DNA from: an uncultured Verrucomicrobiota bacterium
Lineage (GTDB): Bacteria; Verrucomicrobiota; Verrucomicrobiia; Limisphaerales; UBA9464
DNA length: 36,995 bases
Direction of reading: 5' to 3'
Assembly (NCBI GenBank): GCA_903907925.1
Contig: CAIVQB010000057.1
Coordinates: forward strand, 1-36,995
Made by a program: the position numbers and the translations under genes. This document shows, in pieces, positions 20,669 to 23,231 of this stretch; the stretch's first letter is position 1, and the number at the start of each line of letters is the position of its first letter. The notes beneath the pieces are model-generated. The model did not search any database. It had not been told where the DNA came from and saw only the letters and a program-made list of their open reading frames with translations.

Positions 20669-22312
20669 TCAGGTGGGCGACGGTGAAAGAGTAGGAGAAG
20701 GGATCGGTTTGCGGACCGGTGCCGGTCCGAACAGCACCGTCAGCGGAGTCCGACGAATGAAGAATTCAAAGGTGATCAACGCGATGCCAACCGTGATGGC
20801 CACCGTCACGAACGCCTGCGGCAGGGGTTGCAGTTTCATCGGCCGGACCCAGCTCAGAACCGGGCCCTGGATCAAATCCTGGTGCACCAGGTAGATCCAG
20901 AAAGCAGTGTCCGCCAGGTATCGGGTGAGCCGGGTAGGTCGATTCACATAGCGCTGGAAGAGACCAATCAAGCCCACGCCAAGGTGGGAAGCAGCGACTG
21001 CAAACAGGAGGAAGCCACCCAATCGCGCCACGCCCTGCAATGGATTGGCCCCGCCACCGAACGGTCCGCTCTCGGGAAGGAACCGAAGGCAGGAATAGGC
21101 AATGAATCCGATCGCCAGCGTTGGAATCCAAAGGCGGCCCAGGGCGGGAAGCCCGTTTCGGAGCCGAAACAGCAACCAACCCCACATGAAATAGGTGAAG
21201 AAATAGGGCCAGTCGGTATCCCACCGAAACAGGGTGTCGGGAAACACTCCCATGATGGTGCGAAAGCCCGATGGAGGTTGTCCCGGCGAGGTTCCCGACA
21301 GGTAAAGCCCCCCGAGGCTGAGGATCGCCAGTGAGAGCGGTCCGAGCCCCCAACCGAGAATCCTGGAACCGACGGCATCAATGGCCTCCGCGCCGGAGGC
21401 TGAGAGACGCCCGAGCAGCAAGGACACCGGTAACGCTGCTGAGGCGAACACCAGCAGGTACCAAAGGAACCAAAGGTGCGCGAAATTGAAGTTCCGGGAC
21501 GCAGAGCCAAACCACTTCTCGGAAATCGGGTTGTTCATCCCGACTCCAGGGAAACCGCCGGGGCCACCCGGGCCACCCCCACCGCGAGGTCCACCGGGTC
21601 TGCCCGCGTTGCGGCCCATTTCTTCAAGGAACGCCTTGGCTTCCTTCCATTCTTCGGGGCTCAGGGACCCGTCCTTGTCCTTGTCGAAACGGGCCAGGAA
21701 CGGCGGCACGAAACCCGACGGGGGAGCGGGCGTTTCGCCGTTGAATCCCGGGCTGGCTCCATCGCCACGCGGTCCGGCTCCCGGACCCGGGAATCCACCG
21801 GCGCCCGGGCCCCTACCAGCCATTCCTGGAGGTCCCCCAAATCCGGGCCCCTCAGGACCACCGGGTCCACCCGGGCCGCCCGGACCCTCGCCGCGGTCGG
21901 GTCCCGGCCCGCCGCCGCCGAAGGGAAAATTGTTTTGCGGCCCGTAGGTGCGAATCGCGGCAAGAACAAAGAGAACCATGAGGAACGGGATGCCAATCCG
22001 GGTCCAACGGCGGGCCAGATATTTCCAGGCTCCATATTTCTCCAGCATCATGTGACTGAAGAATCCTGAGATCAGGAAAAACAACGGCATCCGGAAGCTG
22101 TGGATCCAGTTCATAATCACCGGAGCGGCCCCACCGTCGCCTCCGGGTCCCATCATCACGCCCCCACCAAACATGATGGCGTGAAACAGGACCCCCAAGA
22201 GCATCGCGGTGGCGCGAACGGCATCCAAACCGAAGAATCGAATGGAGGCTGATGGCACCGGTGAGGGGACGGATGTCGGTGTTCGAAGAGATTCCGTGTC
22301 AGACAGGGACAT
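20669..22312 (-). CDS. Acyltransferase-3 family membrane protein with an inserted Gly/Pro-rich EF-hand segment
   Basis: A 547-residue polytopic protein of the acyltransferase-3/OpgC-like superfamily, which moves acyl groups onto cell-surface sugars. Family marks: RFFGLDAVRATAMLLGVLFH with the catalytic-type His at 44, SFRMPLFFLISGFFSHMML, ARRWTRIGIPFLMVL, FAHLWFLWYLLVF, and the late helices through FWIYLVHQDLIQGP. Between the third and fourth helices, residues about 124-265 are an insert of GGP/GPG repeats containing one canonical EF-hand loop DKDKDGSLSPEE (residues 210-221). Such an insert is unusual for the family. By topology it should lie outside the cytoplasmic membrane. The gene stands alone between the sigma operon and the phosphatase operon, both on the same strand. 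Confidence 0.9.
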   Translation of the reverse strand: MSLSDTESLRTPTSVPSPVPSASIRFFGLDAVRATAMLLGVLFHAIMFGGGVMMGPGGDGGAAPVIMNWIHSFRMPLFFLISGFFSHMMLEKYGAWKYLARRWTRIGIPFLMVLFVLAAIRTYGPQNNFPFGGGGPGPDRGEGPGGPGGPGGPEGPGFGGPPGMAGRGPGAGGFPGPGAGPRGDGASPGFNGETPAPPSGFVPPFLARFDKDKDGSLSPEEWKEAKAFLEEMGRNAGRPGGPRGGGGPGGPGGFPGVGMNNPISEKWFGSASRNFNFAHLWFLWYLLVFASAALPVSLLLGRLSASGAEAIDAVGSRILGWGLGPLSLAILSLGGLYLSGTSPGQPPSGFRTIMGVFPDTLFRWDTDWPYFFTYFMWGWLLFRLRNGLPALGRLWIPTLAIGFIAYSCLRFLPESGPFGGGANPLQGVARLGGFLLFAVAASHLGVGLIGLFQRYVNRPTRLTRYLADTAFWIYLVHQDLIQGPVLSWVRPMKLQPLPQAFVTVAITVGIALITFEFFIRRTPLTVLFGPAPVRKPIPSPTLSPSPT

Positions 22313-22521
22313 GTTTGTGTGGGATTCCGGAGGGCGATCGAAGGGTAACGCCGTACGGACTCTTCCCGTGCCGATACCCTTTTCGATTTCCCATCACAAC
22401 GACCCGGGTCGGGACTTTCAGTTACCGTTCGTGACCGCTTCTACGGTTACGATGAAGTGACGGTTCGGGCGGTGCCAAACCGGGGTGGGAATCGCGAGTC
22501 CCGCGTCCCTGGTCCAAAAGG

Positions 22522-22553
22522 AAAAACACCGCCCGTTACCAGGCGGTGTTTTG
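22522..22553 (-). terminator. Intrinsic terminator of the alkaline phosphatase operon
   Basis: Inverted repeat AAACACCGCC (22524-22533) / GGCGGTGTTT (22542-22551) with an 8-nt loop. On the minus strand the stem is followed by a T run. It lies 31 bp after the stop codon of the CTERM protein gene and separates the operon from the acyltransferase gene. Confidence 0.9.
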
Positions 22554-22583
22554 GAATGGATGCGGAATTTCAGCGGCCCGGTC

Positions 22584-23231
22584 TTAACGCTTGAAACGGC
22601 GGTAAACAACCGCGCCGACGAACAGCACACCCGCCACGAGTGAACGGGCGTCCACTTCGGGAACATCGGTGATGGTCGTCGTGCTGATCTGGCGATAGAA
22701 TTTGCCAGCCGGCAGCACCACTTTGGAGGCCTTCGCGATCGCACCACTGGTAATATCCGCATTGGCTGATGCCAGATTCACCTGCAGGGATCCGATCAAT
22801 TGATCCTGGGCGTTGTAGAACAGGACCGGTTGAATCGGGTTTGCATTTCCGCTCAGCGTGCTGCTTTCCAGTTTGAAACCCAGGCCGGTGAGGAACGTGG
22901 ATGGCGGAAGGAGCACGAGGACCGGCTGGAACAGGGCGTTCATCTCGGTCTCGGTGGTGCTGGCACGGCCGTAGTCGAACGGCTTTTCAACGGTCACCGG
23001 GCCGACGCCGGTATCCACCTGCCATCGTTCGGTTCCGGGGATGTCGCTGCCGACGGAGTCGGTGAGCGGAGCATAGACTCCGTAGGAAAAGGTGACGCCG
23101 TCCTTCGCATAGCTGTTGGCAATGGCCGGGTTACCGGAGGACGGGGGGATGTCGAAGGAATAGACTCCCGCCTGCGCCGCCGTCCCCAAGGAGACGATGA
23201 GCATCAGGAGGTTCGAAAATTGAGTTTTCAT
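22584..23231 (-). CDS. Secreted protein with a PEP-CTERM-like C-terminal anchor
   Basis: A 215-residue exported protein. Signal peptide MKTQFSNLLMLIVSLGTAAQA, then a beta-rich domain without a name (VYSFDIPPSSGNPAIANSYA, TFLTGLGFKLESSTLSG, VLFYNAQDQLIGSLQVNL). At the C-terminus VPEVDARS is followed by a hydrophobic helix (LVAGVLFVGAVVY) and RRFKR. This is the plan of exosortase-sorted PEP-CTERM proteins, with VPE in place of the usual PEP. The frame extends upstream into the phosphatase gene, but ATG 23231 gives the signal peptide. It starts 25 bp after the alkaline phosphatase stop and ends just before the terminator, so it is the last gene of that operon. Confidence 0.82.
   Translation of the reverse strand: MKTQFSNLLMLIVSLGTAAQAGVYSFDIPPSSGNPAIANSYAKDGVTFSYGVYAPLTDSVGSDIPGTERWQVDTGVGPVTVEKPFDYGRASTTETEMNALFQPVLVLLPPSTFLTGLGFKLESSTLSGNANPIQPVLFYNAQDQLIGSLQVNLASANADITSGAIAKASKVVLPAGKFYRQISTTTITDVPEVDARSLVAGVLFVGAVVYRRFKR

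Follow-up and report, generated by a model that had tools for sequence, protein, structure and literature searches.

An EF-hand-type loop in the Gly/Pro-rich TMH3-4 insert of an acyltransferase-3 protein from an uncultured Verrucomicrobiota bacterium

The acyltransferase-3 gene and its surroundings

The DNA analyzed here (the window, 36,995 nucleotides in all) comes from an uncultured bacterium of the Verrucomicrobiota and carries on its minus strand an open reading frame of 547 aa, which starts at 22312 and stops at 20669; the plus strand of 20669-22312, translated in frame, is interrupted by stops. The encoded protein belongs to the acyltransferase-3 (AT3) family by its match to PF01757 (Acyl_transf_3; 101.5 bits against a gathering cut-off of 31, E 6.4e-29), and this match is divided into two stretches, the better of which covers residues 28-128. 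Residues 123-262 contain 47 Gly and 28 Pro in 140 positions, bearing out the original prediction of an AT3 protein interrupted by a Gly/Pro insert. Both motifs given for AT3 proteins in PMC9833829 are present, R-x10-H in TMH1 (R33/H44) and RxxR in TMH3 (R102/R105). The gene is made up as follows (all coordinates within the window).

20669..22312, minus strand: AT3 gene, 547 aa plus stop (open reading frame; PF01757, 101.5 bits; model resembling HGSNAT, VIA Z 15.2)
21947..22249, minus strand: residues 22-122, TMH1-3 with R33-x10-H44 and R102xxR105 (invariant columns of the alignment and motif check; meaning of the motifs as given in PMC9833829)
21716..21946, minus strand: residues 123-199, first Gly/Pro-rich linker, mostly predicted disordered (pLDDT <50 for 128-193; 33% of columns gapped on average, five members)
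21617..21715, minus strand: residues 200-232, EF-hand unit of short E helix, loop and F helix (block pLDDT 78-86 over 201-230; helices 204-207 and 219-236; mean pairwise identity 0.70, 4% gapped)
21650..21685, minus strand: residues 210-221, 12-residue EF loop DKDKDGSLSPEE (PS00018 match; ligands at positions 1, 3, 5 and 12 kept in 5/5 single-EF members)
21527..21616, minus strand: residues 233-262, second Gly/Pro-rich linker (pLDDT <50 for 237-258; 45% of columns gapped on average)
20693..21526, minus strand: residues 263-540, TMH4-10, starting near HLWFLWYL (second PF01757 stretch at 20771-21511 in a search of the organism's own genome; model helices)

AT3 proteins acylate extracytoplasmic sugars with groups that they move across the membrane (PMC9558356). 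By its sequence the window protein is an AT3/TmAT-type membrane acyltransferase that probably acylates sugars. Its predicted structure (mean pLDDT 75.7, from an alignment of 13 sequences) has a mostly confident membrane core and, as a predicted model only, the 10-TMH TmAT fold. VIA alignment of the model returned nine HGSNAT-type rows (Z 14.0-15.2, rmsd 5.0-5.6, 280-296 residues), the next row falling to Z 4.0; seven of the nine are titled HGSNAT and two only 'membrane proteins' (8jl4 and 8jkv), the latter being cited for HGSNAT in PMC12423673. Foldseek alone also ranked HGSNAT first for this model, weakly (E 0.51), with no match at E <=0.001. The predicted core aligned with HGSNAT over 290 residues (Z 15.2, rmsd 5.5), although identity is only 13% and HGSNAT carries other additional fused parts according to PMC12423673.

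Among better-known AT3 enzymes, MdoC and OpgC, which succinylate periplasmic glucans (PMC9558356), share the AT3 motifs with the window protein, and their model NF003014 was its only NCBIfam match. The score of 124 bits lies far below the equivalog cut-off of 338, and membership of this glucan succinyltransferase family was rejected; the window protein also differs from MdoC/OpgC in the insert of about 140 residues with its EF-hand between TMH3 and TMH4. Its likeness to OafB and Oac lies in the long periplasmic TMH3-4 loop and in the R-x10-H and RxxR motifs (PMC9833829). OafB, however, has a C-terminal SGNH domain, whereas the window protein has no SGNH match in Pfam.

The AT3 gene stands in a minus-strand series consisting of an alkaline phosphatase, a 288-aa ORF, the AT3 gene itself, an ECF sigma factor, a 143-aa ORF and a 664-aa protein. 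None of the ORFs of 143, 664 and 288 aa has a Pfam match; the first of them lies next to the ECF sigma factor and, at a guess, may be an anti-sigma factor. No neighbouring ORF was common to the window and the other orthologue loci (3.9 to 14 kb each; ORFs of at least 90 aa, E 1e-8), so that the context names no substrate. Another genome of the same genus (G007) keeps the surrounding gene order and has a different ORF of 505 aa, on the other strand, at the position of the AT3 gene (window 20669-22587 against L143:3931-5751), and a tblastn search of that spot with the AT3 protein gave no match at E 1e-5; occupation of the spot by the AT3 gene is thus variable. Contamination of the bin was also considered and is not supported, since, among matches outside the window, the five closest to the 664-aa neighbour come from the same genus (51-56% identity, followed narrowly by three genomes of another genus at 51-52%) and G007 keeps the surrounding gene order.

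The EF-hand unit and its conservation

The segment from D210 to E221 (DKDKDGSLSPEE), followed by W222, fits PS00018, the pattern of the 12-residue EF-hand loop, and no match arose in 20,000 shuffles of the loop (0/20,000); one perfect EF-hand loop at 210-221, as originally predicted, is therefore what we find. It is also the only PS00018 match in the window's loop, which means that a second, paired EF-hand is absent. Pfam EF-hand models match residues 207-225 at E 6e-4 to 0.03, all under their gathering scores (EF-hand_5, 19.5 against 25.9 bits; EF-hand_1, 17.8 against 25.4; EF-hand_6, 14.6 against 25), and an orthologue (L013) passes those of EF-hand_6 and EF-hand_1. A phmmer search with the window's EF peptide returned weak matches, including two lanmodulins (E 0.008 and 0.01) and calmodulin-type and calcineurin B chains. 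Structure prediction, proposed at the outset as a check, gave low confidence for the linkers (pLDDT <50) and good confidence, within the insert, for the EF unit at residues 201-230 only.

One EF-hand set in Gly/Pro linkers occurs in five genomes, the window's own (G000) and G008, G015, G021 and G619, whose proteins are 53-62% identical to that of the window. In all five, window included, the ligands are kept (D at position 1, D or N at 3, D at 5 and E at 12), Gly6 and Leu8 of the EF loop are constant and the preceding VPPFL is common to them, so the proposed tie between an EF-hand-type loop and a sugar-acylation-type membrane enzyme stands. Homologues with a common variable loop and no conserved EF-hand residues had been named as the result that would overturn the original prediction; the loop did prove variable, but with the ligands kept in 5/5 the EF-hand is not unconserved, and only half of that result was obtained.

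Mean pairwise identity among the single-EF members is 0.76 for the N part, 0.70 for the EF unit and 0.62 for the C part; for the linkers it is 0.52 and 0.65, values inflated by their Gly/Pro composition, with 33% and 45% of columns gapped. Of six pairs compared for dN/dS in the EF unit, three were saturated and three gave 0.022 (G021-G008), 0.028 (G015-G008) and 0.312 (G000-G619). In the last pair the EF unit does not fall below the core (0.248 and 0.250), and its loop taken by itself reaches 1.55 on about 7 synonymous sites, with the ligands kept. In the linkers, too, dN/dS is <1 in every comparison that yielded a ratio (0.065-0.429), and purifying selection is therefore not confined to the EF unit. 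What distinguishes the EF unit from the linkers is its few gaps and kept ligands.

Loop contents in related proteins

A survey of the bacterial family with a C-part profile (E 4.3e-107 or better) found orthologues of the window's clade in 7/50 genomes, namely the five single-EF genomes, the window's own included, together with G014 and G017. None of seven other genomes of the window's genus has one (one of these being only 54% complete). Wider samples, with at most 6 (class) and 9 (phylum) candidates scored per genome, gave at least 2/384 genomes of the class with a match reaching E 1e-40, namely that of the window and G008, and at least 3/288 of the phylum reaching E 1e-20, where the window's genome was joined by two with remote short-loop proteins. 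Two clade members lie outside the family, in G049 of the same order and in Aquisphaera insulae. The orthologues of G014 and G017 carry a four-EF module at the same loop, so that EF modules in the TMH3-4 loop recur. The loop of the Aquisphaera insulae protein (L041) is Gly/Pro without an EF-hand, and that of G049 (L015), of 83 residues, has neither an EF-hand nor a Gly/Pro stretch; the EF-hand is accordingly dispensable for the core enzyme. In a tree built without the loop, which carries long-branch warnings, the nine clade members join (100/100), as do the five single-EF proteins (100/99) and the four-EF pair (100/98), and G049 is sister to the latter (100/96). On this tree the EF label must have changed at least twice, for example by being gained twice, or gained once and lost in G049.

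The insert falls between TMH3 and TMH4; by AT3 topology the insert is predicted to be periplasmic. A long periplasmic loop at this place has been described for OafB and Oac, and in OafB this loop helps to bound the acetyl-CoA pore (PMC9833829). The insertion site is therefore a known variable loop and not unprecedented, and its contents are what is unusual. Searches with the window protein or its C part yielded 52 AT3 proteins (N-part score >=90, duplicates removed), a biased sample in which the loop holds ankyrin repeats in 28 cases, a short stretch in 14, EF-hands in 7, Gly/Pro only in 1 and other contents in 2. Loops of at least 100 residues occur in 36/51 proteins of this biased sample (L038, whose C part was wrongly mapped, was excluded from both this count and the tree), and the expectation that the AT3 family would have no insert at this point had to be given up.

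The ankyrin repeats occupy the same loop in a separate AT3 clade (28/52; L019, L020, L026, L037 and 24 others), whose rows form one side of the starred tree branch (100/99) and which includes one protein each of Aquisphaera insulae (L075) and a different family of the order (L037). They were identified with a profile that we built from four of the loops later matched by it, and Pfam found Ank in 4/4 of the ankyrin-loop proteins scanned. With ankyrin, four-EF and one-EF contents at the same place, the TMH3-4 loop is a recurrent insertion site for small domains, and the window protein, having relatives with other small domains in that loop, is an unusual variant of a familiar enzyme. Proteins of a short-loop AT3 clade (L024, L025 and L085) measure 550-563 aa, and L024, the only one of them aligned, has a long insertion in a later loop (alignment columns about 588-725).

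Within this bacterial family EF modules are not confined to AT3 proteins. At E 1e-6 or better the four-EF module of G014 was matched in 32/50 family genomes (G014 counted), with many matches spanning only about half of it. The four best of those outside AT3 proteins show 48-54% identity and include L101, a CotH protein by Pfam. The hosts assigned by Pfam, none of them AT3 proteins, are CotH (L101 and L112), PSCyt1 (L106) and PQQ_2 (L135): the CotH and PSCyt1 types share EF loops and GGP linkers with the AT3 inserts, and the PQQ_2 type shares EF-hands. The window's 42-residue EF segment finds the five members of its own clade and, weakly, EF-hands in L135 and L136 (E 1.8e-4 and 5.4e-4), the latter a propeller-type protein like L135 as judged by eye. 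Compact four-EF modules were located in AT3, CotH and PSCyt1 proteins (L013:1075-1488, L014:1363-1764, L101-L104 and L106-L111), and two proteins of the window's genome (L096 and L097) look, by likeness, like the PQQ_2-type L135, with EF-hands, propeller-type proteins of this kind occurring both there and in relatives.

The sister four-EF module has some likeness to lanmodulin (LanM). In 12/12 aligned modules 12 residues separate the two loops of each pair, a spacing that matches the 12-13 residues between adjacent EF loops of LanM (PMC11845868), and the best Foldseek match was 8fns (E 2.6e-3, none at <=0.001). Pro at loop position 2, however, occurs in only 3/48 loops of the 12 aligned modules, and the identification as LanM was rejected on scores of 21.8 (L013) and 31.3 bits (L101) against an NCBIfam cut-off of 135. 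The window protein differs further from lanmodulin in having one EF-hand only; lanthanide binding by this EF-hand, which has Lys, not Pro, at position 2 and is single, finds no support.

A possible Ca2+-stabilised module beside the acyl-transfer pore

The reading we favour, to which we give roughly even odds (about 0.5), is a Ca2+-stabilised periplasmic module, one EF-hand between disordered Gly/Pro linkers, that tunes or tethers acceptor access beside the acyl-transfer pore. The periplasmic TMH3-4 loop of an AT3 enzyme would have acquired a small one-EF module with two flexible linkers, and periplasmic Ca2+ bound by the EF loop would order this small unit. We infer both Ca2+ binding and its effect. 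Because the TMH3-4 loop borders the pore that brings acyl-CoA to the periplasmic side, the ordered unit, acting as a flexible lid or tether, could tune or position the sugar acceptor (or a partner protein); we envisage no Ca2+ switch of the cytoplasmic style. The single EF-hand would probably require a partner, by dimerisation or in another EF-hand protein, for full stability. Several findings speak against this explanation: the EF-hand is single and below the Pfam gathering scores, two clade members are EF-less, low dN/dS is shared by the linkers, the gene is patchy and its neighbours name no substrate.

Alternatively, the loop may simply tolerate insertions, the EF-hand being a passenger acquired with its Gly/Pro linkers from other proteins, which may bind Ca2+ and has no catalytic role. 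The wide variation of loop contents in the kin, from ankyrin, four-EF and one-EF to Gly/Pro only and short, agrees with such a passive spacer, as do the freely changing linker lengths and the two clade members without an EF-hand, but ligands kept in 5/5 single-EF proteins that share 53-62% identity with that of the window, and an EF unit that is predicted ordered and about as conserved as the core, argue the other way, and we regard the spacer as a tentative second choice. Ankyrin repeats are a typical interaction domain, and their presence in the same loop of another AT3 clade suggests a docking element, in which the EF unit and GGP linkers would pair with putatively exterior EF-hand proteins (CotH, PSCyt1 and PQQ-propeller types) and bring the enzyme to its acceptor or into a complex. 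EF-hands with GGP linkers do occur in other proteins of the family, the four-EF module being matched, partly at half length, in the 32/50 genomes mentioned (G014 counted), and the window's EF unit weakly resembles EF-hands in the two propeller-type proteins; against this, the genome neighbourhood offers no linked partner and shares no ORF with the other orthologue loci, and docking seems to us unlikely.

The insert had also been described as collagen-like and possibly surface-adhesive, a description suggested by Gly and Pro making up about half of it and by eight GGP tripeptides in the 152-residue loop. A collagen-like sequence is marked by a long uninterrupted Gly-X-Y tract, and such tracts reach no more than 6 triplets in the window protein and 8 in any of the nine clade members, so the first half of the description fails. 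Surface adhesion fares no better: we found no evidence for it, the linkers are predicted disordered and the loop is predicted to be periplasmic by the AT3 topology set out in PMC9833829, all of which leaves an adhesive role very improbable.

Returning to the Ca2+-stabilised module, the long variable periplasmic AT3 loop is known and its EF-hand content is what is unusual. Among the matches listed, our literature searches gave no report of AT3 proteins with EF-hand or ankyrin inserts, and the listings on EF-hands in Verrucomicrobia/Planctomycetes and on CotH with EF-hands gave no title on such proteins; the words EF-hand and ankyrin are absent from the main text of PMC9833829, PMC9558356 and PMC2824669, the last a paper on a 10TM acyltransferase. 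The AT3 review (PMC9558356) raises as an open question how transport and transfer are accomplished by AT3 proteins that lack SGNH, and whether these depend on a partner. It is conceivable, though we consider it doubtful, that in this AT3 subgroup the TMH3-4 loop works as a plug-in socket beside the acyl pore, whose interchangeable, lineage-specific modules (one EF-hand, four EF-hands, ankyrin or bare Gly/Pro) set acceptor choice or metal dependence, in which case acylation of outer sugars in the window organism would be dependent on external Ca2+. The EF-hand form of the loop may represent a Ca2+-dependent AT3 variant, and the natural variants at the mouth of the pore (EF-hand, four EF-hands, ankyrin and short) would provide ready-made chimeras for a role of this loop in acceptor choice or regulation.
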